Shown here in pieces: positions 3,580 through 29,500 of a DNA stretch of 46,771 nucleotides. The stretch comes from a virus. The translations under genes were made by a program, and so were the position numbers. The first letter of the stretch is position 1; each line of letters begins with the position of its first letter. The notes beneath the pieces were generated by a model. The model was not told where the DNA came from. It worked only from the letters and a program-made list of their open reading frames with translations, and made no database searches. The stretch lies in IMG/VR virus record IMGVR_UViG_3300010885_001803, positions 1 to 46,771 of that record; one strand, 5' to 3'.

Positions 3580-4420
3580 CCGAACCTCCGTCTATAAATC
3601 TACTTAGACTAAATTTGTTCATCACATGTACATCAAGATTAGTAGTTTTTGCTATAATATACTCACCGTTATAATTTTTCTTTTCCATTAAAAATTGCAT
3701 TGTGCCGTTGTGCATTTCAACCAACACATCCTTATCTCGAGTATAAATCATTTTACCTGGTAACTCTACTGTAAAATTTCCGTCCATTTTTGAGTTTAAT
3801 ATGTGTATTGCAATACTAAATGCATAATCATTTCTAAATAAAGATGCATCTATGTTATACAACATTTTATAGTAATCCCAATTTGTTCTTATATAAGAAA
3901 TTAAATCAAAAAACGATTCCATCATTGGATTTTTTTTAAAAATAAATGCCGTAGCCCAATAAAAAGGAATACCCCGATCATTAATACGATTAAACTCATC
4001 TGCAGATCTTTCGTGTGCTAGATCCATGCTTTGAGAATAAATTTGCAAATCAGCATCTCGATCAAATGCTGATTTTAATACACTACTGTTTATTATAAAG
4101 TCGCTGTCAATCACAAGAGTTGTATCGTATGGGCTAAGTGCATAGGCTTGATACCTAGCAAAATTTTTCCATTCTAAACTTTTTGAAGATAGGGCGCCAT
4201 CAAAGAATGCTTTCTTTTGCTTGTATGCTATTTCGTGTACTTCAATAACTTGATCAAAAGGGTGATCAAGATAGGTAGTATTCAACCAGGTCAGACTATC
4301 AGTAACTAAACTAACAGGTAAATCTAAATAATGCTGTGCTTGTTTGGCCGCAAATATAGATAGCTTGATATAATCAATGCTAGAATTGTTTTGCGCAAAA
4401 ATTACAATACCTTTACTCAT
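3572..4420 (-). CDS. GT8-like glycosyltransferase (DSD motif)
   Basis: A 282-residue paralogue of the neighbouring downstream gene. It has the same MSKG-x-hydrophobic first strand (MSKGIVIFAQ), the ARYQAYALSPYD block, and a metal/nucleotide-sugar-like triad D105-S106-D107 in VIDSDFII. The C-terminal third is divergent. It overlaps the 114-residue gene upstream by 4 bases and the paralogue downstream by 8 bases. Two tandem pairs of unrelated GT-like families in one operon suggest that the phage builds or edits a glycan. Whether this is on its own fibres, its DNA or the host envelope is not shown by the sequence. No signal peptide or membrane anchor is present, so it should act in the cytoplasm. 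Confidence 0.6.
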   Translation of the reverse strand: MSKGIVIFAQNNSSIDYIKLSIFAAKQAQHYLDLPVSLVTDSLTWLNTTYLDHPFDQVIEVHEIAYKQKKAFFDGALSSKSLEWKNFARYQAYALSPYDTTLVIDSDFIINSSVLKSAFDRDADLQIYSQSMDLAHERSADEFNRINDRGIPFYWATAFIFKKNPMMESFFDLISYIRTNWDYYKMLYNIDASLFRNDYAFSIAIHILNSKMDGNFTVELPGKMIYTRDKDVLVEMHNGTMQFLMEKKNYNGEYIIAKTTNLDVHVMNKFSLSRFIDGGSGV

Positions 4421-8569: not shown

Positions 8570-10489
8570 TTAGGCTAAATCTAATTCCCAAGTCCAAACG
8601 TTAGCTTGTAATGCATAAAGTTTAATAATTCCGCTTGGATTACATTGTACCCTACACAGTGTATTTGCCCTATGTTCGCCTGGAGGGAACATTCTTTGTA
8701 ATAATTGTGTTCCAATTTCTGTATCGGATAGCCCAGTAGTTACCAGGCTAATACCTAATGAAGCTCTAGCAACTGCTTCATCAACATAAAATTTTGTGGA
8801 AGCATCGGTATCGTCGTACGGAGTATCAAGATTTTTAATTTTAGCGCCGCTTGCACTAATATAGCCTGTTCCTTTTGGTCTTAGTGTTATATTTCCTGAA
8901 ACTTGAATACTAGAATATGCAATTGTACTACCAGTAATACTTAAATTAGAAACTGCTAAACTGGTTAATGTTCCTACACTAGTTAATGCCGGAGCTGAAG
9001 TAATTGTATTTCCTAAGGCCTGCCCACTTAAAACTAATTGTCCGTTTACATAATAACCAGCATTACCTCCGCTTGTACCAACGTTAACATAATCACTAAA
9101 GTTCCAATAGCCTGTATTGGTTGATGCACTACTTGTAGTTGCATTAGCGGTCCAAGATATTACTTTATCTGTTGCACCTTTAACTGTTATACCGCCGCCA
9201 CTGGCAGTAGTATCGGTAGGACTAGCAACTTTGGCTAATTCAATATTTTTATCTGCAATAGTAACTACTGTACTACTAACAATCTCAGTACTACCTTGTA
9301 CTGTTAAGTTGCCCTGAACAATAACATCACCTGCTACATCTAACATAGCATTAGGACTAGCTGTGTATATACCCATACGTTGTGTATTAGTATTGATATA
9401 TAAACTGTTTGATAATGTTCCGCCGGCATTTTTTAAGTTAATACCAAAGTTTTGCCCTAATGTATTTGAGTTTATTGTAAATGTATTTGAGTTTGTATCA
9501 ATTTGCATCGTCATATTCGATGCGGCACCTAATATCAATGGTGTATTGTTTTGTATACTCAACGATCCTGTTGTAGTATTATTGTCGCTGGTGGTTAAGA
9601 AACTTTCCGCTGTTTTTAAACTACCATTGGCTGCTAATAAACTTTGAGCTTGTGTGATAAGTCCATTATACACAATACCAGGAAGAGATCCTGTATTAAA
9701 TCCAATTTTAATAATATCGCTAGTTGCAATCATAATAATCGGAGCAACTGAACTACCAATAATGTTTGAAGTACTAACTGTATAGGTGCCTGCGCCACCA
9801 GCTGTTCCAGAAGTTTGGTTTGTTATAGTTGTGTTTGCAATAACGTTAGCACCAGATAATGTTTGACCTACTACTAATGTACCAGATATAACCGATGTAA
9901 CAATTAAAGAGTTTGCTATTTGATAAGCAGATACGGTAGCTGTACTGGTAAAACCTGGTAAAGTAGTTGACGGGATAAACGTGCTTTTACTATAAATTCC
10001 TATAATAGTTGAAGCTACATAAAGTACTACAACTGTATGCGATACTCCATTAACATCAATAATAGTTTCTACGTTGAAGCCGCTAGTTCCTTGATTTCTA
10101 GAATAAATTGGACCTGCTAGTGTTGTCGATGTACCATCATTAAAATATAACTGGCCATTAGTACTATCAATCCATAAATCTCCAGCAGTAATTCCACTAG
10201 GAACTGTATTAGATACAATAGTTCCACTTGTAACTGCAAAAGTTGTACCGTTATAAACTTTTAATCTATTTTCCCCAGTATCATACCATAGTTGTCCAGT
10301 AATTGGTTTGTTTGGTTGACTTGTGTTGGCAAAATTTTCTAATAGATAAACAAAGTTGTCATTTAAGAAAACACCGTAACCAGTAGAATTTTTTCCAATC
10401 AATGCAATGTCAAGAGCAGTTTGATCAACTATTCCGTCGGGTACAGTATATTTTAACGTACCATTAGTTAAGTAAATTGAATAACTCAT
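8570..10489 (-). CDS. Tail-fibre-like protein, LENFA family, with inserted module
   Basis: A 639-residue protein with the shared fibre N-terminus: DGIVDQ, LIGKNSTGYG at 30-39, NFVYLLENFANTSQPNKP at 45-62, GQLWYDT, and the second block GDLWIDSTNGQLYF and FIPSTTLPGF (171-180). Directly after that block, residues about 186-252 are an inserted module with GQTLSGANV and GAGTYTVSTSN, absent from the 739-residue paralogue at the corresponding place. Further on come shaft-like segments (MLDVAGDVIVQGNLTVQGST, GNITLRPKGTGYI) typical of phage fibres, and a KFYVDEAVARAS helix before a distinct C-terminal domain ending in a Trp-rich WTWELDLA. No collar domain or G2-like domain is seen. Its ATG overlaps the stop of the upstream gene by one base. 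Probably a tail fibre or adhesin. Confidence 0.75.
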   Translation of the reverse strand: MSYSIYLTNGTLKYTVPDGIVDQTALDIALIGKNSTGYGVFLNDNFVYLLENFANTSQPNKPITGQLWYDTGENRLKVYNGTTFAVTSGTIVSNTVPSGITAGDLWIDSTNGQLYFNDGTSTTLAGPIYSRNQGTSGFNVETIIDVNGVSHTVVVLYVASTIIGIYSKSTFIPSTTLPGFTSTATVSAYQIANSLIVTSVISGTLVVGQTLSGANVIANTTITNQTSGTAGGAGTYTVSTSNIIGSSVAPIIMIATSDIIKIGFNTGSLPGIVYNGLITQAQSLLAANGSLKTAESFLTTSDNNTTTGSLSIQNNTPLILGAASNMTMQIDTNSNTFTINSNTLGQNFGINLKNAGGTLSNSLYINTNTQRMGIYTASPNAMLDVAGDVIVQGNLTVQGSTEIVSSTVVTIADKNIELAKVASPTDTTASGGGITVKGATDKVISWTANATTSSASTNTGYWNFSDYVNVGTSGGNAGYYVNGQLVLSGQALGNTITSAPALTSVGTLTSLAVSNLSITGSTIAYSSIQVSGNITLRPKGTGYISASGAKIKNLDTPYDDTDASTKFYVDEAVARASLGISLVTTGLSDTEIGTQLLQRMFPPGEHRANTLCRVQCNPSGIIKLYALQANVWTWELDLA

Positions 10490-12708
10490 TAGATTGCACC
10501 TGTAAAAATTATATAATTAATAGTTTGATACGGATTCATAACGTTTACTGGAATTCCTGTAGCACCATTAACACTACCTGTATTTAAAATACCAGAACCT
10601 ACTGTACCCGAACCCGATGTTCCTACGTTACCAATTGCATATGGATCTGGAGCTTCACGCGGAGTGTTAACTGCGTAAAACTGACTAGTTCCGTCATTAA
10701 GACTGTGATTGTGATCTGGAAGATTAGATGCAATCAAAGTAACTGTACCATTTGCTACTGAATTTCCTGAACCTACTGACTTAGCCGATGCATCGGCGAT
10801 ACGGTTTGCTGTAGAACTTGTATTGCCATTTATATCTACGGTTGTTGTAATTTGAGTTCCTGAACCGTCTTTACTAGGTACAGAAATATTGTTATTCATA
10901 CCATCCGAGCCTAAAGGAAAACGGCCACGCAAATCTGGTAAGGCAAACGTTCCTAAACCTTTTAATAACCCAGATGCTTTGTAGGTAAATCCAATAACGC
11001 TGTATAAACCTGAATATTGACTAATTAATACTTCCGATCCGTCACATAACAAATATCCTGAAGGGATAACTCCTCCTGCAAATGGTAAAATTGTTGCTAC
11101 AGGCACCATTGCTTGGTGTTTAAATAAGTTTGCTTTGGTCATTTTTAGCAAACCTAATCCTGATCTGTAAACTAATAATTGATCATTTGTATAAGAATCA
11201 GTAGCGGCGTCTTGTGCGGCAATAAAGTCTGGACTAATTTTTGTAGAAAATACTGCGGTACCTGTTGTAGTTTGTCCGTTAAAACTTAATTGATTACTAG
11301 TAACATCGCCTGTTAAACTAAAAACTGTTGGACTGGCTAAGGCTGCGGCTGTTCCGCTAATACTGCCTTCCAGTGTCCCTGTAAATGTTCCACTAAAGTT
11401 TCCTGAGAAGTTTGTAGCGTAAATATTTCTAAAACTTCTTGTACTAGTTCCAATATCGTATACGCCACTTGGCACATACGGAATAACTAAATTGTTTGCT
11501 TCAGTTTGACTGGTACTATATCCAGGTAACAAGACTGAAGCGGCGATTGGTGCGCCACTATTATCATAATAATTAAAATAATTTTGTCCGTAAAACGTCG
11601 CATCATCGCCAAAAGTTGATGTCTTAGCTACTGTTAATCCGCCTTGTGTAACAATACTGCCAGTAGCTGTAGTAAATAGTGTACCTGGAGTGTAATTGCT
11701 ATCAAGTGTACTAGTTATATTTAAATAGCTAGTAATGTTATTAACAACATCATCTTTAATTGTCAATACGCCCTTAACATCCAATGTAGATACCGGTGCA
11801 GTATTAGTATATCCAATACCAACACGGCCATTTGAACTTATATGTAGAATAGGACTAGTAACCGCAGAATTAGTCAAATTAAAATTAATGCCAGCGCCAC
11901 TTAATGTTGATTTAATTGTGGGAACATTATTTTCAATATCAAATATAAAACTAGAGTTTGATCCAATTGTCAAACCGGTATCTGCTCTAATATTTAAAAT
12001 ACTGTTAGTAGTGTTTACTTTTCCATCAGTTGTTAAAAAACTTGCGGCAGGAACAGTGTCACCGTTAATTATTAAGGCGTCTGCTTTTTCTGAAATTCCA
12101 TAGAACTTACTAGTTCCAAGATTGCTTAAAGTTGTTCCGCGATAGATTGTATCAAACCCCGGTATTGTAGACTTAGGAATGAATTGAGAAGAACTAATAA
12201 TAGCAATGCGTTCATTGTTAGCGTAGATACTAACGATTGTATGAGATACGTTGTCAGTATCAGTAATTGCTTCAGCTAACGGGCCTGATTGTGTGCCTGT
12301 ACTAAATTGTGGTCCAACTAATAGCCAAGCTGATCCTGAGAAAATATATAACTGACTAGTTGTAGTGTTTGCCCACAAGTCACCTGCAATACTATTAGCA
12401 ACTGCTGGTGCTGATGAACTTTTCTTTAAACTACCTGCTGTAGTCCAAGTTGTACCATCATATACTTTTAAAATGTTTGTACCAGTATCGTACCACAATT
12501 GTCCTTGTATAGGATTTGGTGGACTGGCAGGAGCGGCAAAGTTTTCTAACAAATGTAAAAAATCGCCTGCTAAAATTGAACCGTACCCTGGATAATTTTG
12601 TCCTACAAACGTAAGACTAGTCGATGAACTATTAACTGTTCCGTCAAGAACTTTAATAGGCGGTTTGTTTGGGTTAGTTGAATCAGTGTATTGAATTTGA
12701 TATGGCAT
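10489..12708 (-). CDS. Short-tail-fibre-like protein with collar domain (gp12-like C-terminus)
   Basis: A 739-residue protein. The N-terminal part is the shared LENFA domain (LTFVGQNYPGYG, FLHLLENFA at 50-58, GQLWYDTGTNILKVYDG) and the second block ends in IAIISSSQFIPKSTIPGF. The middle resembles a fibre shaft. From about residue 535 a phage tail collar domain is evident: ILPFAGGVIPSGYLLCDG, LPDLRGRFPLGSDG and, later, LPDHNHSLNDG, with the C-terminus NPYQTINYIIFTGAI. This is the arrangement of T4 gp12 and many phage receptor-binding fibres. The NHS-type histidines could ligate metal, as in gp12. A good AAGGAG ribosome binding site precedes the ATG. Inferred role: trimeric fibre contacting the host surface. 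Confidence 0.85.
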   Translation of the reverse strand: MPYQIQYTDSTNPNKPPIKVLDGTVNSSSTSLTFVGQNYPGYGSILAGDFLHLLENFAAPASPPNPIQGQLWYDTGTNILKVYDGTTWTTAGSLKKSSSAPAVANSIAGDLWANTTTSQLYIFSGSAWLLVGPQFSTGTQSGPLAEAITDTDNVSHTIVSIYANNERIAIISSSQFIPKSTIPGFDTIYRGTTLSNLGTSKFYGISEKADALIINGDTVPAASFLTTDGKVNTTNSILNIRADTGLTIGSNSSFIFDIENNVPTIKSTLSGAGINFNLTNSAVTSPILHISSNGRVGIGYTNTAPVSTLDVKGVLTIKDDVVNNITSYLNITSTLDSNYTPGTLFTTATGSIVTQGGLTVAKTSTFGDDATFYGQNYFNYYDNSGAPIAASVLLPGYSTSQTEANNLVIPYVPSGVYDIGTSTRSFRNIYATNFSGNFSGTFTGTLEGSISGTAAALASPTVFSLTGDVTSNQLSFNGQTTTGTAVFSTKISPDFIAAQDAATDSYTNDQLLVYRSGLGLLKMTKANLFKHQAMVPVATILPFAGGVIPSGYLLCDGSEVLISQYSGLYSVIGFTYKASGLLKGLGTFALPDLRGRFPLGSDGMNNNISVPSKDGSGTQITTTVDINGNTSSTANRIADASAKSVGSGNSVANGTVTLIASNLPDHNHSLNDGTSQFYAVNTPREAPDPYAIGNVGTSGSGTVGSGILNTGSVNGATGIPVNVMNPYQTINYIIFTGAI

Positions 12709-12718
12709 CTATAGCTCC

Positions 12719-13327
12719 TTACACTGACACGAGGCCGGTTAAACTTTGTATACGCACAGTATAATCAATTTGAATCAAACGATTTAAACTTTTTAATACT
12801 GGATGGAATATCACATGAGTTAATAATAAACTTTGTCCTGAACCACTGTAATTTACCAAGCCAAGTTCATCAAATGTAAATGTGCTGTTGTTACTACTTA
12901 CAGTATCAAACGCTGTTTGGTCGCTAGGCTCGCCGTAATCTAATAAACAACTGACAAACAAATCACTGTGAGTTGTGCCGTTAGTATGTCTAACTTCAGT
13001 AAAATTCCTTGTTGGGTCTGTATTTGCCGCACTACCTGGGTCAACTACCTTAACATATTTCTGGCTATACAAACTGGCGTTAGTGCCGCTGGTATTTGGT
13101 GTGAGATATGAAATAATACCTGTAGGATCAACTGCTGTTCCGCCATTACCAAACGCCATCTGATAAACATACCCGCCTGTTGACGCATTTGCCAATGAAT
13201 TGGCTAGTGCAATACTCATATTTTCATAATGAATAGCGTTACGTTTGTTCACGAAGGTTTCTTTAGTTTTAGGGTCAAATATATGAATGTGCCCTTCTAT
13301 GTGAATTCCTGTTGCGTCCTTGTGCAT
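12719..13327 (-). CDS. Virion structural protein, unknown function
   Basis: A 202-residue protein beginning with GIHIEGHIHIFDPKTKETF and KRNAIHYENMSIALANSLAN, a conserved start that I associate with small structural proteins near the fibres of marine T4-like phages. The rest is beta-rich with many Ser/Thr/Asn (VSSNNSTFTFDELGLVNYSGSG) and the C-terminus returns to a hydrophobic strand pattern (LIQIDYTVRI). No catalytic motif, membrane segment or signal peptide is seen. It is the first gene after a GATAAATA late-type promoter box and is followed by the collar-domain fibre 10 bases downstream. It may be a fibre attachment or baseplate-peripheral protein; this is inference. Confidence 0.7.
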   Translation of the reverse strand: MHKDATGIHIEGHIHIFDPKTKETFVNKRNAIHYENMSIALANSLANASTGGYVYQMAFGNGGTAVDPTGIISYLTPNTSGTNASLYSQKYVKVVDPGSAANTDPTRNFTEVRHTNGTTHSDLFVSCLLDYGEPSDQTAFDTVSSNNSTFTFDELGLVNYSGSGQSLLLTHVIFHPVLKSLNRLIQIDYTVRIQSLTGLVSV

Positions 13328-13378: not shown

Positions 13379-14953
13379 TTACCTGACACCTGTTGTACGT
13401 CTAGGGTAAACTTGCCCAGTTGTTGATCTAAACCCATAATTTTGTTTAGGAAAAGTGCTACCAGTATGGAATAATTTGTAAAGTTCAGCGCCTTTTGGAC
13501 TTCCTAGTCCGGTTGCGGCGTCCCAACCTACAGTAGTAGTGTATCCTGTTGTATATCCATTACGATTATTGCCTAATATTATATCGGTAAATGCTTGAGT
13601 ATTTGAATAAAATAACGAGTTGGCAAACGACGGTCTGCGTCCCCATAGCTGAGTTAGTCTAGTAATCATACCGGCTAACCACGGAGCTGCCGCGCTTGTG
13701 CCTCCGTATTGTACCAGTGTGCCGTTGACATAAAATTGGTATCCTGTACTAGGATCTGCTGGCGCACTAACGTCTGGAATTCCACGTCTAGGTAATGCTG
13801 TTGCTGTGCCAGTTGTACTAGCAGTTACAGTTGTCGAAGTTAACCCTGTTTGCCAACTAGGTAAACTAACTATTGCACTAATTCCTCCACCACCACCCGA
13901 CCATCCGGCTTCGTTATTCCAAGTATTATCATTATTAAGATACAAACTTGTACCACCGCTGGCAATTTGATAAGCATTTGTTCCTGGATAACCTGTTACT
14001 AAATTGTAAGCACCAGCATCTCCTGTTGCTACAAAACAAGTTACACCAACAGCCACACACGCTTGGAATGCCGATAACAAATAATCAGTGCTTTCGCTAC
14101 TAGATCCCCAGCTAATTCCAAGACTGCTAGGTTTATTTGTTGTGTCAGTTGATGCCGCCAAAATAGCATCTCTAAATCCTGCACCACTATTTGGCGCCAT
14201 GTATATTGCAATAGTTGCACGTGGAGCAACACCCCCCGCACAATAAATATCTAGCATAGTTTCACTATCACTAGTAGTACTACGAGTTGCACCGCCTACT
14301 AGTACATCAACAATAGTTGGCACAGTAAGACCAATACGAGTAAAACTGTTTGTTACATCGGTTGTATTATAACCAGCAACATATCCGCTGTAAGTTAATT
14401 CTAAAAGACCAATACATCCACCATAGCCATCACCTGCAGGTAAATTATATGCAGTTGCAACCTGCACAGGTGTTACCGCTGCCTTGCTTGGATACACAGC
14501 TGGATCATCATTGGTGTGGATTTGTTCATCAAACTCAACAGCATTATGAGTAAAAATGGGTTCGTCATCAAATCCTAAAATCATTTCAACAACATCATCA
14601 ATGTCTGTAGGTATAATAACAACACCATCGTGTGTTTGATATTCATGACCGTCTTCAGTTGTAGCTATTTTTAAAGTTATACTAAACAGTGCGTTGAATT
14701 GTTCAAATGTTCCTAAAACTTTTACAGTAGCAGTTGCCGCATTTGAATCTACCACAGTTAAATTATTTGTAGTAGCCCAAGACTCAACAACTGCCACTTC
14801 ATCTGCAACTGCTCCAAACTGATAGGCAAATGCATCTTGACTAAGTACTGGTTGAGTTCCTGCTATGATAGCATCGGTATACTCTTGAAGAGACATTCCA
14901 TTTTCATGTTTGTCTCTTTTTAAATATATACTAATTGTTGTTTGGTTAGACAT
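13379..14953 (-). CDS. Sedolisin (S53) serine-carboxyl peptidase with propeptide
   Basis: A 524-residue endopeptidase of the kumamolisin/sedolisin family, with a subtilisin-like fold, a Ser-Glu-Asp triad and usually an acidic pH optimum. Residues about 1-135 look like the pro-kumamolisin activation domain (VKVLGTFEQFNALF, VVIIPTDIDDVVEMILGFDD). The catalytic domain runs from about 160 (TPVQVATAYNLPAGDGYGG) to 497. Putative catalytic residues are E231 and D235 (SETMLDIY), the oxyanion Asp D312 (VATGDAGAY) and the nucleophile S420 (GGTSAAAP). The family's PDVSAPADPSTGYQFYVNG stretch precedes Ser. C-terminal Ca2+ ligands are represented by FTDIILG (D457) and GWDAATGLGSPKG (D478). No signal peptide is present. 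It lies 2 bases after the 877-residue fibre gene, with a weak ribosome binding site. The family call is firm. Whether it is virion-borne, processes virion proteins or attacks host proteins is open. Confidence 0.93.
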   Translation of the reverse strand: MSNQTTISIYLKRDKHENGMSLQEYTDAIIAGTQPVLSQDAFAYQFGAVADEVAVVESWATTNNLTVVDSNAATATVKVLGTFEQFNALFSITLKIATTEDGHEYQTHDGVVIIPTDIDDVVEMILGFDDEPIFTHNAVEFDEQIHTNDDPAVYPSKAAVTPVQVATAYNLPAGDGYGGCIGLLELTYSGYVAGYNTTDVTNSFTRIGLTVPTIVDVLVGGATRSTTSDSETMLDIYCAGGVAPRATIAIYMAPNSGAGFRDAILAASTDTTNKPSSLGISWGSSSESTDYLLSAFQACVAVGVTCFVATGDAGAYNLVTGYPGTNAYQIASGGTSLYLNNDNTWNNEAGWSGGGGGISAIVSLPSWQTGLTSTTVTASTTGTATALPRRGIPDVSAPADPSTGYQFYVNGTLVQYGGTSAAAPWLAGMITRLTQLWGRRPSFANSLFYSNTQAFTDIILGNNRNGYTTGYTTTVGWDAATGLGSPKGAELYKLFHTGSTFPKQNYGFRSTTGQVYPRRTTGVR

Positions 14954-14954
14954 A

Positions 14955-17588
14955 TTAATTTTCTAATTTTAAATATGTGATCGTTACAGTTATTGCAGTT
15001 GTGCTACCACTGTTATTGGTAATTCTCAAATACATGTTTGTACTAGGAGTGCCATCTGCATTATAACCATAGACAGCAGGAGTAAAATAAGTTGTAGTTG
15101 CGGTTGTGGTGATTGCCTCAGCAACTACACCACTACCTGGTGTAGGATCTGTTGTGATTGCCCTGGCGCTGTCGCTTGACTGCGCAGTTGAACTAGTATA
15201 TATTGATACCCATGCTCCTGCACTAACTTGTATGCTATACAATGCATATCCTTTGGCGGCTGTAACTGTTGCGGTGGCCGCGGCATTTGATGCCAAACTT
15301 GCCGTTGTAGTTGCAACAGTAGCACGTGAACTTAATGTTGATGTAGTTGCGCTAATAACACCACTGCTGATAGTAATTGTGCTTCCGTCAACTTTAACTC
15401 CACCTAGTACACTTGTTGTTGCAGTTGGAAGAACACTACTAATAACACCACTGCTGATAGTAATTGTGCTTCCGTCAACTTTAACTCCACCTAATTGAGT
15501 TGTGCCAGCTGTTGCTAAACTTAATGCCCCACCTGTATTAATAATTCCACTTGTAGCTACCGCAGGAATTGTAACACCTCCAAGTAAACTAGTTGTTGCG
15601 GTTGGTAATGTATAAGAAATAATACCATTATTACTTGTAATAGTAGTACCATCAATTTTGACTCCACCTAGTACACTTGTTGTTGCTGTTGGTAATGTAT
15701 ACGGTGTGGCTACTAGTTGATTACTACCATTTAATGTGATAGTAGTATTGTCAATTTTAACTCCACCTAATACGGTAGTACTTGCTGTAGGCAATGTGTA
15801 TGCTGAAGAAGAACTAATTACTCCATTATTAATTGTAATTGTTGTACCGTCAACTTTAACTCCACCTAGTACACTTAAACTTGCTGTTGGTAATGAGTAA
15901 TTTGTATAGTTGGCAGTAATTGTACCATTAACTATACTAATTGTTGAACCGTCAACTTTTACTCCACCTAGTACACTTGTGCTTGCTGTTGGCAATGTGT
16001 ATGTGTTTTGTGTTGCTGATATAACACCAGCTCCGTTGATTGTAATTGTTGAACCGTCGATCTTAACTCCGCCTAACGCACTTGTTGTTGCGGTTGGTAA
16101 TGTATATGATGTCACGCCACTAATAGTTCCAGTTATTGGATTAACTGTTATAGTGGTGCCATCTACTTTAACTCCACCCAACTGGCCAGTACTTGCAACT
16201 GGTAATGAGTAATTTGTATAGTTGGCAGTAATTGTACCATTAACTATACTAATTGTTGAACCGTCAACTTTAACACCGCCCAGTACACTTGTGCTTGCTG
16301 TTGGTAATGAGTAATTTGTATAGTTGGCTGTAATAACTCCTGCGTTAATACTAATAGTTGTCCCGTCAACCTTTACTCCACCTAGTACACTTGTTGTTGC
16401 AGTTGGTAAACTATACTGCAATGCTGTTATAATACCAGATCCGTTGATTGTAATTGTTGAACCGTCAACTTTAACTCCACCTAGTACACTTGTACTTGCT
16501 GTTGGCGTTACACTAGAAATTATTCCACTAGTAGCTGTTATAGTTATACCGTCAGGTTTAACTCCACCTAATACTGAAGTAGTTGCTTGGGGTAAGGTAT
16601 AACTACCTGTATTAATTGTTAGTGTTGCGGTACTTCCGCTAACACCAGCAGTGACGCCAGTACCGGTAAAATTTAATGTAGTAACTGCGGATGCGGCTCC
16701 TTGTGTAGACCCTGCATTTTGTACAGTAACTCCTGTAATGCCTGATCCGCCACCGCCACCTGTTACAATAGATGACATCAATCCAGTGCCACTGTTGTAA
16801 CTAAATGTTATTCCTGTTTGTGTACCGCCTGTTAACATTGCCGCGGCTACTGCTTTAATATTGGCAGGTATTACTGCTAACTGTCCACCAGTTGATGCAA
16901 TTGTTGTACCGTCAACTGTTACACCGCCTTTGACACTAGTAGTAGCTGATGGCAGTGAATAATTAGAACTGATTACTCCGTTATTAATTGTTATACTTGA
17001 ACCATCAACAATAACACCGCCTAAAGAACTTGTAGTTGCAGTTGGCAAAGAAAAAGTTCCTGTAGCACTAATGACGCCGCTGCCATTAATTATAATGGTT
17101 GAACCGTCGACCTTAACACCACCTAAAGAACTTGTAGTTGCAGTTGGTAATGAAAAAGAAGATACTCCACTAATAACTCCGGTTGTAGGATTAATTGTAA
17201 TTGTTGTACCGTCTACCTTAACTCCTCCGCGAACGCTAGTGCTAGCTTGAGGTAAAGAATATGTATACGGAGCGGAAATAGTACCGTTATTAATTACAAC
17301 AGTGGTTCCATCAACTTTAACTCCACCTAGTACACTTATAGTTGCTGTGGGTAATGCATAGTTTGTGTAATTAGCACTAATAACCCCAGTTCCATTAATA
17401 CTAATAGTGGTTCCATCAATCTTAACTCCACCCAATGTTGCGCCGGTGGCGGTTGGCAACGTATAAGAATTTACTAACGAAGCATAAACTTCAGTAAAAT
17501 TAGAATTAATTTTTAAACCGGCAGTTCTTAAACTATCGCCTGTTTTATCTCCGGGGTTAGTTCCCGTGTTTATTAGTTGTAAAGCCAT
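14955..17588 (-). CDS. Long tail fibre with 19 LGGVKVDG repeats
   Basis: An 877-residue fibre-like protein. The N-terminus (LINTGTNPGDKTGDSLRTAG...INSNFTEVYASL) is a conserved start of fibre proteins in marine T4-like phages and may be the virion attachment part. About 19 units of 28-35 residues follow, each of the form LPTATTSVLGGVKVDGTTITINNGVIS with small changes. Between units 6 and 7 a non-repeat segment of about 95 residues interrupts the array; it holds a run of five Gly followed by SGITGVTVQNAG. The C-terminal about 130 residues (from STLSSRATV) form a distinct beta-rich Ala/Thr/Ser domain ending ITVTITYLKLEN, a likely receptor-contact tip. A SD-like AAGGA precedes the ATG. The gene lies between the giant virion gene and the sedolisin. 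Fibre identity is strong; receptor unknown. Confidence 0.85.
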   Translation of the reverse strand: MALQLINTGTNPGDKTGDSLRTAGLKINSNFTEVYASLVNSYTLPTATGATLGGVKIDGTTISINGTGVISANYTNYALPTATISVLGGVKVDGTTVVINNGTISAPYTYSLPQASTSVRGGVKVDGTTITINPTTGVISGVSSFSLPTATTSSLGGVKVDGSTIIINGSGVISATGTFSLPTATTSSLGGVIVDGSSITINNGVISSNYSLPSATTSVKGGVTVDGTTIASTGGQLAVIPANIKAVAAAMLTGGTQTGITFSYNSGTGLMSSIVTGGGGGSGITGVTVQNAGSTQGAASAVTTLNFTGTGVTAGVSGSTATLTINTGSYTLPQATTSVLGGVKPDGITITATSGIISSVTPTASTSVLGGVKVDGSTITINGSGIITALQYSLPTATTSVLGGVKVDGTTISINAGVITANYTNYSLPTASTSVLGGVKVDGSTISIVNGTITANYTNYSLPVASTGQLGGVKVDGTTITVNPITGTISGVTSYTLPTATTSALGGVKIDGSTITINGAGVISATQNTYTLPTASTSVLGGVKVDGSTISIVNGTITANYTNYSLPTASLSVLGGVKVDGTTITINNGVISSSSAYTLPTASTTVLGGVKIDNTTITLNGSNQLVATPYTLPTATTSVLGGVKIDGTTITSNNGIISYTLPTATTSLLGGVTIPAVATSGIINTGGALSLATAGTTQLGGVKVDGSTITISSGVISSVLPTATTSVLGGVKVDGSTITISSGVISATTSTLSSRATVATTTASLASNAAATATVTAAKGYALYSIQVSAGAWVSIYTSSTAQSSDSARAITTDPTPGSGVVAEAITTTATTTYFTPAVYGYNADGTPSTNMYLRITNNSGSTTAITVTITYLKLEN
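15352..15406 (-). repeat. 55-bp exact direct repeat, copy 1
   Basis: Identical to 15439-15493, 87 bases (29 codons) away, so the last two fibre repeat units are a recent in-frame tandem duplication. Confidence 0.9.
15439..15493 (-). repeat. 55-bp exact direct repeat, copy 2
   Basis: Second copy of the exact repeat at 15352-15406; the period of 87 bases keeps the reading frame. Confidence 0.9.
15888..15959 (-). repeat. 72-bp exact direct repeat, copy 1
   Basis: Identical to 16200-16271, 312 bases (104 codons, three units) away inside the fibre repeat array. It encodes the segment around SIVNGTITANYTNYSLP. Exact identity suggests duplication of a block of several units or gene conversion. Confidence 0.9.
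16200..16271 (-). repeat. 72-bp exact direct repeat, copy 2
   Basis: Second copy of the repeat at 15888-15959; the offset is a multiple of three, so recombination between the copies would add or remove whole units in frame. Confidence 0.9.
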
Positions 17589-17592
17589 GTTA

Positions 17593-20500
17593 TTATCCTT
17601 GGTCCATTGTTAAATTAGGGTCATCAAATGATGTTGATGAGTCAAATGTCAGTTGTGGGTTAAATTTCCCACCAAGTGTTGTATTACTTATTTGATTGTA
17701 TTGAGCATACCATATACCTGGTTTTGCTTTAATAAAGTTGGCAATCAGACTAGTATCGTCTAAGATATTTGGAGTTTGTTTTCCATCCCAATCAACACCA
17801 GTTCGTTTGTACACAGTTACTTGTGTAGTTATATCTAACTTGTTAGTTAATCTTATCTGAGAAGAAGATCCGTTAACTGAAAAATCAGCATCAAATTTCA
17901 CATCGCCTTCTGGACTCTTTGGTCCTTCATTTATATTGAATACAGTATATGGTGTTTTCTTTAAATGTATATTTCCTACAAAGAAACTCCAGTTTGCACG
18001 GTCAGTTTTAAATGCATCCGAGCTAGTGTGTGCTGTCACACATCGGTATGTATAACTTCCAACATTAACTACTGCATTTTCTATATAAGAAATTCCTGGA
18101 GCCCAGTTGCCAGCTGAAATATAACCGCCAACAAATACATCTAACGAATTATTTTGTCCGTAGCCTGGAGGAATTGTTGTTGGATACACTTTCCAATAGG
18201 CATTTGGAGTTGCCGAGGAAACTACAGTTGCTGGAGAATAATCAATATTTGGAAGTCTTGCAGAAACTGCTAGTATTGACTTGACAGTATAATAGTATGT
18301 GCCATTATAATTTACCACATTGTTAACACCGTAAGTTGCGGCACTACTAAACACGCCTGTGTAAGTATAACCAAACATTTTAAACCAGTTAACAATTCCA
18401 GAAGGATCTGTACTAGATCCTTTGTCAGGAGTAAATTCTAAATCAATATAGTTAGTACCATCTGACGGTATTTGCCAGTAGCTTATTGTATCTTGATATG
18501 GTATAGTTTCTGCAGATCCGATATCCTGTACATAAGTACCTGCTGGATTTGATTTTGCAATCCCTGTTCCTAAAATACTTCTGCGTAACTGACTTAATAC
18601 ATTACCAGTTTTAGCGTAATATTCGATACGTTCGCCTTGAATTTCAATTACTCCTGGAATTCTGTCCGCTATGTTTGGCTCTTGGAAGTTTGACGCATCT
18701 GCTAGCACCATAGATGTATCAGTCCACAATAACGGCTCTGCCAATCGTGTTTGTTTTTCAGCACTTAATCTCGAGTAGGACGTTCTGTTTAACATATCTT
18801 TAAACTGAACATACGCAATACTTGGTTTTAATATAGTAGATCCAAAAGTCATTATCTCAAAAACATCGGAGATTACAGGAATCTTTGCTAGTTGTATTGT
18901 AATTAAATCATCATTTAATCTATAATCAACCCCAGGAATTAATAGTGTTGAATTTTTTGTTACCCATACATAATTTTCATCAATAACTGGTCTTTCAAGA
19001 ATTAGCAAACCACCTTCTGTATTTGTTATTGTATAGTACGTAGAACTATCTGGTACTAGAGCTGTTGTAGCTTCAACAATAAGTTCAGTTCGTTGTAAAT
19101 CTAAAGTATTGTGTTGGTATGACGACAATATTTCAATAACATCGCTTGAATTATAAGTTTGAGCAAACGTAATCTGTTGTCTACTTGCATTATAAGTATA
19201 CCCATTAGGCAACAACACACTAATTACCATTGTTTGATTCAAATAAGTTGTGTATGCAGTAGTCGTAATATTGATAGTAACTCCACCAATGTCTACATAA
19301 TAGTCACGTCCAGCTAATAGCACATCATTTCCAACAAGTACTGAAACTGCACTTGTTTCTAACGAGTACGGAGGTATTTTATTTGGGCTCAATGTGTAAG
19401 CAAAATTTCCTTGTCCTATTGTAAAATATGAGTTAACCGGCGCTGGTAATATTTGTTGGTTAACTCGCACAATCATATAAGTTTCATTTGGCAATAAATT
19501 ACCAATTAAATTTTGCAATGAATATGTTTTTGCTCCAGAAGGATAAATTCTTTCAGTATTAGTAATTGCAAATGTTGGTTGATCGCCACTGACAATAATG
19601 TAATTAATTAATGAATTAATAGGAGGAGGAGTAACAAATCTAATACCTACAGATTTAACTAAAATATAATTAGTATCTGTTTGGAAATATTCAACAGTCT
19701 GAGGAACCCCATCAACAAATATTGCGGCTGTAAACATATCAAGCCAAGGAGCCTTAGTAATAAACTCTGTAGTATTTCCATCTCCAACAAAATAATCAAG
19801 GTCTAAAATATTTTCTCCAGCGTACCCGATATTAAAAATACTAACAATAGAGCCATCTGCTGGTGGAACATTAAATGTGACTGTACTAGCTTGATAATTT
19901 ATAGAATAATCAGTATTAAGTGTCTGTATTCCAGTTGCTCCAGTAGTGCCGGTTACTTTAACAACAATTGAATTAATTGTTACCGGTTGTTGAGATATTG
20001 AAAATACAACCGTAGAACCGTTGGCAACATAATTGTCTACTTTAATCTTAGCAGATCCAGAATTTGGTCTGTCAAATACTCTAATAGCAAGAGTATCAAC
20101 TACCTGTCCTGGTACCACTTCTTCTGGAGCAGGGCTTGATGTAGGTGTTACAAGACCGTCGCCGTCAAGTATAATATCGTCAGCTAATATTCCTCTTGCT
20201 GTTGAATATGCAAGATCGCCTCCTGAGATATCAGTATCTCTATCAGCTGGAGCAATAGTTCCGTCACTTGTCTGTTTACGGAATATAAAAATGTCGCCTG
20301 ACTTAGTAGGGAAATTAGAAGGAATAGAAACCACTCCACTAGTGCCAGTTATATACAACGAATTCATTACTGCATCAGGATTTGTTTGATGCGGCAGTTC
20401 AGGATGTAACGGATCTAATGGAGTTCCATAGTAAGGATCATCTATTCTAATAGGATCTAAATTGCCAACAATATTAACTACCGAACCTACTGGTGGCGGT

Positions 20501-23500
20501 ACTCTAAATATTATAAATCCTGCAAGTCGTGTGTTTATATCAATAGGATCAACTAAATTTCTCTTAAATGTTAATGCAGTATTATCTGGTATATTTTTAA
20601 GTATAATTTGATCCAGGGTTAATTGTGTACTAGAGTCGATACTTGCAATCTTAGCTTCGTACCCAAATGCTTCTAAAAATGTTTCCGAGTATACAATGTC
20701 GCCAACTGTTAAATTAACAGTATTATCAATTGTTAATACTGTTGATCCTGCAGAATTTTTGATAAATTTAACAGTTGCCCCTATTGTAGGAATTAATGAC
20801 GGCGGTCCGCTTAGAATTAACGACGTTGTATTAATAAGTTTAGTCACAGTTTGTGTGTCAAACCCTGTGCCAACAACTCCTAAATTGGCTACAATGCCCG
20901 CAGTACTTGCTACAGTTAATATTGTTCCTAAAGTAAAAAATTCATATAATTGATCTACCGACGAAGCAGTAAGATTTTGTGACAATGTAATTTGTAAATT
21001 TGTAACTTGAATAACAGTTGTGTTATAAGGTACTCCTGTACCTGAAATAAATTGTCCTGCTACAATATTAGAAGCGTTATCAACTAAGATTGAAGATTGC
21101 CCCACATTTCCAGCTAACGATTTAGCCACAGCTACTATGGTTGTACTAATCGGATACGAATTAACTGGAGCAATTAAGGTAGTAGTTGCAGAGATTGAAC
21201 TAATTGCCTGAAGTGGGAAAGTTAAAACTACTGTTGGATACAAAAATAAACTATAAGGAAAATAGTCAGTAACTCCATCTACTGAGATATCAGTTGTACC
21301 GTCAAATGTTGTAGTTATGTACTCGCCCCAATAGACGTTAATTGGAATTCCAGAATCTGACACATACGGTAATGTCCAAGTATGCAACAACGGATTGTTA
21401 ACTGTTGGGAAAAATGTTTGTGTTACTTTATAATCAGAATATTCAGGATCAAATGAGTCCCACTTATCCGAGTTAAATGGCAATGCATCCCATCCGCCGC
21501 CAGTATTAAATCCTAGATTGCCAACAATAGTACCGCCGTAATCAATACCTGTCATCAACTGATTTAATTCTTTGCCAATCATTCCGCTGTTTGGATTATA
21601 ATAAAAATTAATTCTGTCGGCAGCATTTAAAATTGTTATATCTTTTATATAAGACACAGTGGCAACTTCGTCAGACGTTAATGCTGTAGTAAATGTAATC
21701 TTACCAGAAGAATAAGTAGCTCCGTTAATTTTAGAATTAACGATTATAAGTTTATACATCTCCCTTAGCATTGGGTAAGTTGTTAACGACTTAGTGTTTA
21801 ATACAGTTACTGACGATTTGCCAACTTGGATACTAGGTGGCCATGTTAAATCAAATGTCAGCTGAGACCCAGTTCCGTATATAGTTTCCGTGGCATTAAT
21901 ATCGTTAATGTAAGTAGTTTGGCCAATACGGTCAAATTTGATAGCTGTTAAATTTGACCTAACGACGCCATCTCCTATAATTGCAACTATTCTTGCTGGA
22001 GTTCCGCCAACAGCAAGTCCACCTTTAACTTCTATCGTAGGGGCAGACAAGTACCCGCTTCCACTATCTTGTAATATAATTCGATTGATTACGCCATTAG
22101 TAAAAAATACTTGTGCTTTGGCTCCAGATCCAGAGTTGCTGTTAAAAATAATTTCTGGAGCAGTAACATATTTGCTACCGCCTGATACAATCTGTAAATC
22201 AACTACTTTAAATCCTAAATTGTCTGCCCAGAATTTCCAAGGATATGTTTGAATTGCTGGAGTATCTACAGATATCTCTCCATTAACTATGAAAGAAGTT
22301 ACAATGTTCAAAGCATTGTTTGTAACTGCTGACGGCAAATCAAAATCTGTAACTGCATTTGGATTTAAATCCGGTGTGGTTGTATTTGTATACTGACTAA
22401 TATATTCTCGTACCTTAGTTCTATATGGTTTTACTTCATTCACATAGTCCTGAAAATTACTTAAATTATCTACAGGATAATATACCGGTTGGGTAAATCC
22501 TCCAACATTATGAGTAGCTCTAACAAAACTTGTTTTAAATATCCAATCGAGATACGGCTGTTCGCTATGTGCGTATCTTATGCTTCTAAAAAATATATCT
22601 AAATAATTTTTATAAAGAACGCCAGTTAAAATTTTATTTTGCAAAGTATTAAGAATGATTCGTAGTTCAGTCGAAGCTTTAACATCAAATGCTCCAGAAT
22701 CAAAAGTACTTGCATCATAACCAACTGCCGAGAAATCTGTTTGGTATATACTAGAATTAAATTGAATTGTTCCGTCCTGTACTCCAATAACTTTGTAAGA
22801 TTGTGTCCAGTCTGCACTTGTAGAATTTGCATATTTTTCTAATAACATCCATTGTGTAGGACTGGCTGTTACAACCTTAACAATGTCGCCTATATTAGTT
22901 GTAATAAAGTTTAAATCAACAAATATTTGCACAGAAAAATCTGCCGCAGTAAATTGATTATATCCTGTATCATACCAATCGGTGGTATGCCAGTATTGCG
23001 TAACATCAAACGACTGTGTTAGTGTTCTTGACCAAATGCCAACTGTACTGTCGTTGTTATTGACATACGTTGGATCAAAAGAATAGATGCTCCAAGCGCC
23101 TGCGGCTTGACTATCGCTATGTACTAATACTGAATAATCTCGTACAGATACTGTAGTATTATCGTCATATCCTATTCCAGATGATATGATATCAAAATCT
23201 TGAATTCTTCCTAGAGTATCAATTTTAGCTCTAACTAATGCATCTTGACCTGTTCCTGAAATTTGAATATATGGTGCTTGCAAATAGCCGCGGCCAGTTT
23301 CAATAATTATGATATCTGTAATTCGGCCATTAGTTATTACAGGTGTTAATGTAGGTCGAACAAATAAGTTTATATTAGCATAGGCTAATTCGGTACTTGT
23401 GTCAATAGCCTTATCATATAAACCTGTTATAATATTAGGCTCGACATCTTTTAAATATAAATCAGATATGTTAAAATTTTCTATAATTTGTTGTTGTTGT

Positions 23501-26500
23501 AATAATTCATTTATACCTTCCATTACCTCTTTAAGAGCTTCTGAACGATTAACGAACATACTCTGACGCGGACGATTTTCAATACCGTATTGTAATTTTA
23601 CAGGTAAGTTTACATCAGGTACAGCTCTACCAGCTTCGTCAACTCCGCATAAACTATCAATCCATTTTTGTTTTATAGTATTTGGAATTTGCACGATATC
23701 ATCGGCGCTAATTAGTTTCCATTGACTATGAATATTTTGATGAATCTTATCAGTTGTCCAGTATTCTATTGCTAATACTGTGTTTTTGTCGTTCAAATAT
23801 TGTGAAATGTTAACTAGACTATAAGAATTTATTCCAATCAATGATAGGTATGTGTAGCCTTGACCTCTTGGATTTGCAATAAGAGTGGCAACAGATTCGG
23901 CAGAAATATATCTACCTTCTATTGAAGGCACATTTGTTTTATTTTTAACCCAATAGTAATAGGTATTTTTAAAAGTTTTAGTTGTTGAATTATAAGTTTT
24001 AGTTACACAATATGCATTATCTCCGTATAGAGTAGTACCAGTAATGCCAACAGTCTTGCCTGCCGGTGTTGCCGATTGTGTGTCCCATTGCGAAGGCAAT
24101 AGCGAAGATGCTACCCATTCGTATACATCTACACTTGCGCCAGGTGCTAGTTCATTCCATGTGTTGTTACGATAAGCAGGATCTTTAAAATAAGGAACTT
24201 TAAATTTTGTAGTTCTTAAATCCCACCATAATTGGCCGCGTTGTTCACTTGACCAACTAGCACTATCGTTTACTGTAACTTCTACCGAAGCAGTACTATA
24301 AGAATATGTTGCTGGGTCATAGAATGTTTTAAATTTAATTTCTTCTTCTGCAGGACCTGCAATTTTTCCTTGTAACGGATCAATAACATCAATGTAAGTT
24401 AATAATGTACTTGTTGTTTTGTCATATAAAAATGCATTTTTAACTTTAGAAATATCTACAACATCAACTGCTGTTTTGTCAATATTCCACGATAGTGTAG
24501 ACGGCGATTTAGAATATATAGCCAGCTGGCCTTGCAAGGTATTAGAGTTAATTGTAACAGTTGGAGCTCCTACAAATATATTATTTGCGCCAACTGCAAA
24601 TCCTTGACCGTAACTACTAATAGAATTATAAGAATGTGCGAGGCTTTCGCTAAACACCCAGTTCAAATTATAACGGTCATACACATCGACACGACCGCTA
24701 GCTAATTGAGTAGTTATAAAGTTCGTTGATTTTTTATCATAAGTTGTTCTAGATTCATCATAGGTAGTTACAATGGTGCTCGACCCATTTTGACTATATA
24801 CCACTAGAGTCTTTGAATCATTCATAAATGATAATTTAGTACCAAACTCTTGATTGTCTTCAGGAGCATGAGGAATTAAATTCTGTAGTAAACTATACTG
24901 CCCAGTTGCACTGTTAAGTTTATAAACTCCTACATTGCCAACATTATTAATTAATGAATCAAGTTGTATATTATTGTTTATAACTAGGTAAGAAGCATCG
25001 TCTGAGAATGAAGTTGCTTTTCCAAAATCTGGAGATAAACTAGTCAGCGTTTGAATTACGGTTCCATCATTTTTATATACATGAACAACTCCGCCTGCAC
25101 TAGGATTCGGCGTGTCAGTTAACAAATTACCAGAGTATGCTGTTATTGCTACTGTAGATCCGTCTGCACTCAAGCCTACATGATTTCCAAAATAGTTATC
25201 GCCAGTCTGTCCCAAGTTTCTAGTGCCAGTAAACACAGTATCATATGCCCACGATGTTGAAGAAAAGGTGATTGCACCTTTAGGTGTCAAATCGGGAGGT
25301 GCCGACAATACTACTGCGTTTGAACTTTGTATAGTATAGATTGAAAAAGTTAATGTAGTGTCGCTGTTAAATTTTGCAGTAGTAACAGGTAATGCTGACG
25401 GGCCATTTGTTAAATCTTTTTGACTACTTACTTCAACAAAACTATAATTTACAATTTTATAAAATTGATAATCGCCGCTACCTTGTACAATAAAGTTTTG
25501 TATTGCACCCACAAAATCTACTAATGTAATTTTATAAGAGCCGTTTAAAGTAGTGATGGCGCCTACATAACCACCAGTAGGAATTCCTTTTCCAACAACT
25601 AGATAACCAATTGATACACCTGTTGCAGACAGTAGATTGAATGTATTTGCTCCAACAGCGCCACCGGATAATAGTGGACGAGTTGCAGATAACACATTTA
25701 AAGAAGTTAATCCAGTTGCTGTAACTCTAACATCAGGCAAATTAAAATTGTAAGAATTTTGATATAAGTCAACAGTTGAGCCAACTGTGATCTTAGACAA
25801 ATTAATACTAGTTGAAGATATATTAAGAATATTATTAATTGCTCCAGTAACTGGAACAAACAACAATCGAGTAAGAACAGAAACTACTACTTGATTACTA
25901 GTAAATGCAGGATTTTTTCCTAATACATCAAATCCGCTAACTGTCATGCCAGCAGATATACCACTAGTAGATGTAAGTTTTAAAACAGACCCTACACTAT
26001 TAACTTCATCATAAATTGATGTAACTTGTGGAATAGTCTTGTATGATAATTTATAAACACGACCTAGATTGTTTCCGTAATTAGTAGCACTAATATATAA
26101 ATTAGTATTATCAAAAATTAAATTTGATCCAAATTGTTCTGAAGATATACTAGGACTTAAAATAGAATCTACAAACTGATAGTTGTTATTTGCATCTTTT
26201 TGATATAACGTTATCATTCCGTTATTAGCAATATTAGTTGAATGACTTGCTGTAGATGATACAGGAATATAAAATATCTGATTCCAGAACACACTAGATT
26301 GGGTTGGTAAATCTAATGGCGGGACTGGATATAATGCTTGATAATATTTTCCTTGGTAGGAAACAATATCATTTTTAAGATAGGTATTGCTAGAAGAATA
26401 CGCTCCTATATAATCCGTACTAGAAAAACCAACTGTTGGGCTTCCGGTAGCCATCCAAGTCCCGTCGGGACTAATTGCTACTGCCGATACAGTTGTTGTC

Positions 26501-29500
26501 GATGCAAGATTACCAATTCTATTGAAAGGTGGCTGGATTAATTGGCGTTGTGTCCAATTAACCGAAGACGATAATTTATCGTAGGTTGCAATTTGTGTAG
26601 TACCTACCGATACTGCGGCCATATTACCTATTTTGTTTACTGAAATAAATTTAGCAAACTGTGTATTAGCAATTGCTACTGGAGAATTTATTGTTGCAGA
26701 CTCGTAAACTTTTTTGTATTTCCAAGAAGCCCAATTATTTGTAGTATAGTCGCTAACGTCAGTCCAAATAATATTGCCATCATCAAGTTTTGAAGGAAGT
26801 ATAGTGTCAATGTTATCAATATAATCAGTGCGTTGCGATACCAATGTATATACTGTTAAACTATCAATCTGAGTAAACGGTGATGGTACTGCTTTTAATC
26901 CTGGTGCTAAAATAGTAATTTTATTCAACGATACATTATCTACTTTATAAAATCCTTGGATAGATTTAGCTTGAGATATACCAACATAAGATCCTGCTGA
27001 TATTGGAGCATCATACAAAGTCGTTATAGTTAAGACTCCGTTTGTATATTCTACTCCGGTGACACGCAAATGAATATCTGTAAAACGATATACGTTCCAA
27101 CTATTTGCACCATCAAATGCACACCAGAAATATGCACCTTCATTAATTTGTGTAATATCTAATGTAACAGTTCCGGTTCCTGCACCTGTACCTGTTGCAA
27201 TAAATGTAGCGCCAACGTCGTTGCTAGTTGAACCTATCTTAGTAAAATCAGTAGTGCCAGCAGTTAAAATTTTATAACTAATACCTACAGTGATTTTAGT
27301 AGCAGGATGAGAAACTACATCACTCAAGTGTCCTAAACTAACAAATACATCCGAAGGATCTACATAACCTGCACTTCTTAAAAATTGATTAACAGATGTT
27401 GACACTTGTACTCCAGTTGTTGGATCTGGAATTGTATAAATGTTTGTAGGTAAAATAGGAAACGGTGACGAATTGTAACCTAATGGCTTGACATAAACGT
27501 CATTAATAGTTTGTTGTATAATAAAAGGATTAACATTACTAGAAACTGACTGTGTTAACAATGTGCCTTGCGGATTATTTGCATATTTGGTTTCATCTAA
27601 AACAAATTCAATTGCTTCAAAGCCATTAACTGCACCATATTGTCCTACACGCAATGCCCACTCTTCGTAGAATGTTAAACTTTCTTTATTTTCAGAGTTT
27701 AAAACTCCAAACAATTGATTTAAAACATTCTGTGTGCCTTTTTCACGAATCATTCCTTGATAGAATTTAAATTCGCTAACATCATCTTGAATAATATTAT
27801 TTAGATATTGACGCTTTTGATATCCTATCAAATGTTGCGCCATAGTTTGCTGTGCTGAATTAAAACTATCAACATCTAAACTATAAAAATCTGTAAACTG
27901 AGTTGCAATATTAGTCCAATTAGGTAAAATTTGCGGGGCTGGTTTTTTATCTAGTTTTGTCCAGTTTAAAGGGTTAAAAGTAGGTGATCCTGCAATAAAC
28001 ATATCGGCACTATAATAGTAACTTTGATAGCTAACTACATCGCCAATGTTATAATCTTGCCAAGTTTGCCATTCTTTTACTATTGCGCTATCAAATATAA
28101 ATCCTGGAATGTCTAATCCACCGTACCAACCAGTTGTTAAATATCCAGAAACTTTTAATCGTTCTTGTCTGTAGCCGCTTGTAGGGCTATAAATGACGTC
28201 ATTAAAAATCGTAGTGTTGTCTATTATAATAACATGCTCGTGCTGTACTAGATAAAAACTTGCACCATATATGCCATCAGCAGTGCGTGGAGTATATGTT
28301 ACAGAATTCCCTTGACGATAACTATCAAGATTTGTTATTTCAAATGGTGTTCCATTAACTTTAAAAATTTCATAGGTATTAAATCCATTACCAATATTAT
28401 CTACTACAGAAAGATTTGTATTAAAATTTATAGAATTTGCGCCTGGGCTTAAACTAATTACACTTGCACCTTCAATGTTCAACCCTGGTAGAATATTCCA
28501 TTTTTCATATTCAAATTCATTAGACTGTGGGATATTTTGTATTGCACTATAGTAATCGCCTTCATATCTAACAATGGTTGCGTAATTATATGATTTTGTT
28601 GGATCCCAATCGCTCCATTTATCTTGGCCGGCGCTCCAATTTTGTGTAGACCAGAATAAAAATTCTCGAGTACTTGTTCCCCAATTAGATACTGTGTTTA
28701 AATTATTGTTATAATCATCAAAGACAAATCCTTGATCTTTTAAGTATTCTCCATAACCTAACAAGAAATCTACAACTTGTTGAACAGTTTCAAACATAGT
28801 GCCGTACGGAGCAATGACACTGTCAGTTCTGTCCCAATTAGTTCGCATGATTGCCGTTACACCGCCAGTCATTGGCAATGAAGGTAGCGGTATAAAAATT
28901 TTAATATCTAGCGTGTTGCCAGCAGTTGCGTTTGATATGGCTCGATAGAATTTTCCATTATTATGAACTACTGAACCTGCAATATATTGCTGGCCTGGTG
29001 TCCAATCCATATAACTTTCAGAAATTCCGCCTACATTAGTTGCTACACCACTACCTGTATATTGATAATATTTAAAATAGGGTTGTGTAATACTATACCC
29101 TTTAATTTCAAATCCAGTAGATACTTTGGTAATAATTACACCGCTGTATGTTAATCTACTAACCGGGCTTGATTTGTTTAAAAAGACTTTGTAATTTTCA
29201 GTAGGAATAAAAACATTGCCCTTACTGCTAGGAGTTTTTGATTCCAATAATAAATTAAATTGATCTTGATTAGTAAATGCTCCTACTCGATAACTCAATC
29301 GTGGAGTTATTGCAGATAAATCTGCAAGATAATTATTGTAGGCTTTGACATCGTTACTAAAGATATAATTAAAAATTAAATCAACAACATAATTAATTAA
29401 TCCTGCTGTCTGTACACGAGTTTTACTTGAGTACACGCTAGGTAATATAACATCTTTTGGTCTTATTCTTAATCCGCTTATGGTGTATATTAACTGCCCA

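Follow-up and report, generated by a model that had tools for sequence, protein, structure and literature searches.

A kumamolisin-like peptidase encoded next to a phage fibre gene, and a candidate docking tail common to S53 and S8 peptidases

A complete S53 peptidase in a fibre operon

We analysed a stretch of viral DNA of 46,771 nucleotides (IMG/VR record IMGVR_UViG_3300010885_001803), called here the window. On its minus strand, positions 13379..14953 encode an S53 peptidase (sedolisin) of 524 aa, with the ATG at 14953. The protein comprises a pro-kumamolisin activation domain (residues 3-129; 14567..14947, minus strand), which scores 45.4 bits against a cut-off of 23.5 for the Pfam model PF09286, and an S53 catalytic domain (residues 158-493; 13475..14482, minus strand). 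The sole Pfam match to the catalytic part is the general subtilase model PF00082, and an NCBIfam search with the peptidase gave no match. A phmmer search against the PDB retrieved intact pro-kumamolisin (1t1e, E 3.8e-70) over residues 6-493, that is, propeptide and enzyme together. Kumamolisin is the best match in both sequence and fold, at about 31-36% identity.

The AlphaFold model of the peptidase is of moderate confidence (pLDDT 70, pTM 0.76). When this model was compared with the PDB by Foldseek, 1t1e ranked first (E 1.4e-33, TM 0.78) and all of the top 17 matches were S53 enzymes (kumamolisin, TPP1, sedolisin), so that the predicted structure is a subtilisin-type fold nearest to the sedolisins. 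In the phmmer alignment to 1t1e, E231, D235, D312 and S420 fall on the catalytic positions of kumamolisin, which we take to be E78, D82, D164 and S278; D457 and D478 correspond to the Ca2+ site, and Glu32 and Trp129 of kumamolisin have their equivalents in E185 and W282. No signal peptide was found: the propeptide starts at residue 3 and there is no strong hydrophobic run.

An earlier note on this DNA had read the same open reading frame, from the letters alone, as a complete S53 peptidase with a propeptide and no signal peptide. Pfam, phmmer and the AlphaFold-Foldseek comparison bear out each of these points. The boundaries of the frame and the numbering of the four catalytic and two Ca2+ residues were correct; the strand, which the note did not give, is minus. 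The S53 identity of the protein is beyond chance.

The partner fibre and its neighbours

The S53 start codon is separated by one base from the stop of an upstream fibre gene (14955..17588, minus strand), whose 877-aa product has a repetitive shaft and matches phrog_15343 and Phage_head_fibr. It is preceded by a giant structural gene (17593..33363, minus strand; 5256 aa), which is syntenic with genes of S-H38 and S-CREM1 and holds the position of the giant 'baseplate wedge initiator' of cyanophages. Counterparts of similar size are found after gp6 in Agrobacterium and Sinorhizobium jumbo phages and before the FCD fibre (see below) in Synechococcus phages. Next comes a gp6-like baseplate wedge protein (33363..36905, minus strand; phrog_10646, E 1e-281); here, among catalogued phages, Sinorhizobium phage Phosso, Salicola phage SCTP-2 and Agrobacterium phage Atu_ph07 come nearest. 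Directly downstream of the S53 gene we found a virion-type protein of 202 aa (12719..13327, minus strand; phrog_11259), and beyond it a fibre with a tail-collar domain (10489..12708, minus strand; PF07484). PHROG assignments identify gp6, gp25, gp53, gp46/47 and late sigma homologues, which mark this large phage as a T4-like myovirus.

Two further observations concern the same region. Another fibre of the operon (6987-8519) ends in a Peptidase_G2/IMC autoproteolytic C-terminal domain. In many relatives, as in the window at 549-4420, the fibre operon is followed downstream by a conserved run of genes that are glycosyltransferase-like by eye or hypothetical, with no Pfam or PHROG match for those tested.

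At nearly all S53 loci a fibre gene of the same type stands directly upstream, usually one base away. These fibres differ greatly in length, and their constant part is the final ~125 residues, which we call the FCD (14958..15332, minus strand, in the window). AlphaFold predicts the 125-residue FCD as a confident beta-sandwich (pLDDT 95.4). Against the PDB, Foldseek gave a weak match only, to a turret protein of a Haloferax tailed virus (E 1.5e-4, TM 0.41). The domain matches Synechococcus-phage fibres in both fold and sequence: it stands at the end of fibre proteins in 40 Synechococcus-phage records, and those C-termini have a fold nearly identical to that of the window FCD (best TM 0.94-0.96).

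We then considered the gene that follows the FCD. In scans near the window and near S-H38, taking the best 80 matches each, 243 FCD reading frames were followed by S53 (119), S8 (106), another gene (15) or none (3); a contig with overlapping loci enters more than once, and these counts are not population rates. Expressed as distinct complete proteins from the same best 80 matches per scan, the downstream genes encode 59 S53 peptidases, 80 S8 peptidases and 11 other proteins. The fibre stop and the peptidase start are separated by exactly one base in 110 of the 119 S53 cases and in 56 of the 106 S8 cases, again among the best 80 matches per scan.

The FCD fibre and S53 pair recurs amid otherwise different gene orders (for example, L002, L009, L035, L144, L147, L161 and L176); since the pair is kept while other genes differ, it moves as a unit. 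At four loci that share the flanking genes (L266, L267, L269 and L270), the FCD fibre is followed by the 202-aa gene with no peptidase between them. The FCD fibre therefore works without a peptidase, and the enzyme is an accessory, not a required part. A tree of the FCD shows seven label changes for S53, only two of them forced by well supported branches, and because this tree is too short, swaps between S53 and S8 are not reliably countable.

S8 counterparts in cyanophages

In Synechococcus phages the gene after the FCD fibre usually encodes a subtilisin of the S8 family (phrog_9158, phrog_15006). It is annotated as 'subtilisin-like serine protease' in S-H38, S-WAM2 and S-H9-1 and as 'peptidase' in S-CREM1; the Pfam S8 domain is also present in proteins called hypothetical (S-RSM4, ACG-2014h) and in S-CAM1. 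The gene order in S-H38 and S-CREM1, giant baseplate gene, FCD fibre and S8, parallels that of the window, where S53 takes the last place. These S8 proteins have the same kind of tail as the window peptidase (described below) and, by eye, a propeptide-like N-terminus of their own. However, their family is defined by an Asp-His-Ser triad and is not S53, and no catalogued phage contains a sequence match to the window protein. A coarse pattern check recognised the D, H and S motifs together in 44 of the 80 S8 proteins and the Ser motif in 73 of the 80. No signal peptide was found in the phage S53 or S8 proteins.

The record of cyanophage S-SCSM1 lists as 'virion protein' a product that contains an S8 domain, and its authors report 45 virion proteins identified by mass spectrometry (PMC9602691). 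This S8 protein comes nearest to direct evidence for a peptidase in virions, and it is indirect, bearing on S8 only. In the phage search, cyanophage S-SZBM1 gave no S8 match.

A C-terminal tail common to the two peptidase families

The window peptidase ends in a tail (residues 499-524; 13382..13459, minus strand), STFPKQNYGFRSTTGQVYPRRTTGVR, which is conserved in nearly all viral S53 proteins and which we regard as a putative fibre-docking peptide. It has five basic and no acidic residues and contains the motif R-x3-G-x2-[YFW]-P-R, here as FPKQNYGFRSTTGQVYPR. Viral S53 proteins continue after the Ca2+ loop as FPKQNYGFRxxTGxxYPRKTTGxR, and S8 proteins behind the FCD have similar ends, such as NTFPKINYKPRPTSGAVYPR or EMYPKQNYLYRPSSGILYPR; the pattern common to S53 and S8 of the FCD slot can be written (FPKxNYxx)RPxxGxx[YFW]PR. 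In the AlphaFold model the tail is disordered (block pLDDT about 30-39).

Because this regular expression was composed with both sets in view, we trained a profile from S53 tails alone (57 sequences). It matched 24 of the 80 S8 proteins at a domain E-value of at most 1e-3 and 43 of the 80 at most 0.1, the best matches sitting at the C-terminal ends. Controls gave no match: 0 of 87 bacterial S53 proteins, 0 of 11 non-peptidase proteins encoded downstream of the FCD and 0 of 160 shuffled or reversed S8 sequences. Among 863 other reading frames the profile had three matches, all of them viral S53. Likewise, the strict motif was absent from 610 other reading frames of at least 300 aa, and apart from an unrelated frame shared by contigs L051 and L053, a pattern scan of the DNA recovered S53 genes only. 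Because the bacterial S53 proteins lack the tail, we reject a shared ancestry of S53 and S8 as the sole cause of the likeness. Since two peptidase families have this tail in common only in the FCD slot, it is most simply read as a peptide that docks the enzyme on the FCD fibre.

In keeping with this reading, the tail is missing from two viral S53 proteins outside the FCD context (L175:9974-11923 and L179:10019-11308), which are encoded between fibre genes and have C-terminal extensions of other kinds. L156 and L159 are exceptions: the tail is present with no FCD gene adjoining. Within S53 alone the association between tail and FCD is modest (Fisher p 0.015-0.03), because few S53 proteins are without an FCD.

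We also observed two unusual architectures. At L183/L185:9920-14161, with no FCD upstream, S53 is fused to some 1,000 residues that look repeat-like (Ig/cadherin-like by eye), giving a protein of 1413 aa. In phage ACG-2014h (L190:4302-7226), the S8 tail motif is followed by 400 more residues, esterase-like by eye; at the limit used, Pfam finds no domain other than S8 in this protein.

Distribution and conservation of viral S53 proteins

Two scans of viral contigs gave 35 and then 76 distinct loci with S53 relatives, about 99 confirmed stretches, at identities from 90% downwards. Neither the window protein nor a relative without propeptide, used as query, found any S53 in 50,697 catalogued phage records. 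The same type of search in plasmids recovered S53 in Burkholderia, Caballeronia and others; the method used for catalogued phages therefore works. The earlier note had named prior description of such homologues as tail proteins as grounds for giving up its reading. We found them to be common in metagenomic viral contigs and absent from the catalogued phages, and no such description turned up in the open-access literature.

Conservation was assessed in 60 proteins, namely 59 viral S53 of the fibre slot and the window protein. E231 and D235 are invariant in 60/60, D312 and S420 in every non-truncated protein, and the putative Ca2+ residues D457 and D478 are kept in 58/58 ungapped rows. The invariance of the catalytic residues implies that selection maintains an active enzyme. 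One locus (L034:9938-11204) has its S53 broken into two frames of 169 and 261 aa, possibly through a frameshift or an assembly error; in L032, otherwise very similar, S53 is intact.

A quick tree separates all 34 viral S53 rows, as a single group, from 36 bacterial rows (SH-aLRT 100). A viral subgroup of 16 rows is also supported and, unlike kumamolisin, its members examined have no propeptide; most of these proteins are about 407-425 aa long, some being longer through C-terminal extensions. A single capture from bacteria followed by a single loss of the propeptide would fit this tree, although the method used does not place its root.

Proposed role and alternatives

We consider it probable that virions carry the window protein as a kumamolisin-like endopeptidase capable of catalysis, which is held on the fibre by its tail and acts on a protein of the host surface. 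The parts of this reading differ in strength. Docking on the fibre by the tail, suggested by co-occurrence in sequence, is very likely; a host-surface protein as the substrate has about even chances; activation by acid is a tentative proposal. S53 enzymes favour acid pH, and the enzyme would therefore stay quiet in the cytoplasm of the host, where the propeptide would assist its folding and keep it inhibited. Through the tail (RPxxGxxYPR) it would attach to the FCD that terminates a baseplate-associated fibre, and the propeptide would be removed by self-processing, perhaps upon release into acidic water. A free virion with active peptidase could then trim surface or matrix proteins of the host (S-layer, pili, outer-membrane proteins), which may help it to reach the membrane or to come free of debris. 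In cyanophages, an S8 peptidase would play the same role on the same fibre domain.

The earlier note had placed the gene in a tail-fibre operon and thought its product probably virion-borne. That view gains from the strict pairing with the FCD across different gene orders and from the tail that S8 proteins of the slot also carry; the tail itself, the FCD, the S8 counterparts and the propeptide-less relatives had escaped it.

It has to be weighed against the unlikely alternative that the S53 protein is a maturation protease, docked on the fibre in assembly to cut that fibre, the 5256-aa protein or neighbouring fibres, with a target other than the host surface. Long repetitive fibres and a giant protein are indeed co-encoded with S53, and the fibre with a Peptidase_G2/IMC domain suggests that fibre processing may belong to the biology of this phage. 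However, related phages keep the giant protein, the FCD fibre and the downstream genes without any peptidase; moreover, S53 and S8 alternate behind the same fibre domain, and the fibres that precede S53 are of very different lengths.

The one-base spacing and the pairing maintained in different phage genomes also argue against an enzyme foreign to the virion, at work inside the host cell during infection or at its lysis, whose gene is found beside the fibre only as a fellow late gene. The lack of a signal peptide speaks for this reading, which we nevertheless hold to be quite improbable: the C-terminal tail is common to two peptidase families and found only in the FCD slot, S53 proteins found elsewhere have different C-terminal extensions fused to them, and the acid preference of S53 does not suit the cytoplasm. 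A purely adhesive function of the subtilase fold, as a gp38-like binding head on the fibre, would agree with the position of a separate protein encoded right after the fibre, as in T4-type gp37/gp38 pairs, but is very improbable given that the catalytic Glu, Asp, Asp and Ser are invariant in 60 diverse proteins, propeptide-less ones included, and that the D, H and S motifs are recognisable in most S8 counterparts by the coarse pattern check.

Returning to the docked virion peptidase, we somewhat favour a more general extension of it: a plug-in system of T4-like and other phages, made of the FCD and the tag RPxxGxxYPR, in which S53 and S8 are interchanged and the tag would be a portable docking peptide that arms a fibre with a protein-cutting enzyme.

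Relation to known systems and significance

Kumamolisin (1t1e, 1gt9) and kumamolisin-As have, like the window protein, a propeptide and an S53 domain with a Glu-Asp-Ser triad, an oxyanion Asp and a Ca2+ site. Kumamolisin, however, is a secreted bacterial enzyme, whereas the window protein has no signal peptide and bears a conserved basic C-terminal tail. Phage fibre enzymes are usually thought of as cutters of polysaccharide or peptidoglycan. Tailspike and fibre depolymerases and tail-associated lysozymes, likewise enzymes on the adsorption apparatus, cut such substrates and usually do so within the spike chain; the window peptidase appears instead to be docked via a short linear tail. At the tip of the long tail fibre of T-even phages (gp37/gp38), the fibre gene is followed by one for a second protein, which is considered to cap the fibre. 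Unlike S53, gp38 of T-even phages is an adhesin without an enzymatic domain, and the likeness considered here is one of gene arrangement.

S53 enzymes are already on record, as are FCD fibres and the S8 genes of cyanophages, these two mostly as unknown function. In the open-access literature, we found no description of a phage sedolisin or kumamolisin, nor of the FCD fibre and peptidase as one module or of a docking tail; the plug-in docking system is possibly new. A Histophilus paper that contains both words refers to a generic S8/S53 cluster name and is no such description.

These results provide a candidate function for PHROG families listed as unknown (phrog_9158, phrog_15343), and the short candidate docking tag is open to immediate test in cultured cyanophages. 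Present in cultivated Synechococcus phages as well as in uncultivated relatives, the conserved and widespread pairing of FCD and peptidase would imply an attack on protein layers of the host surface by many T4-like phages.
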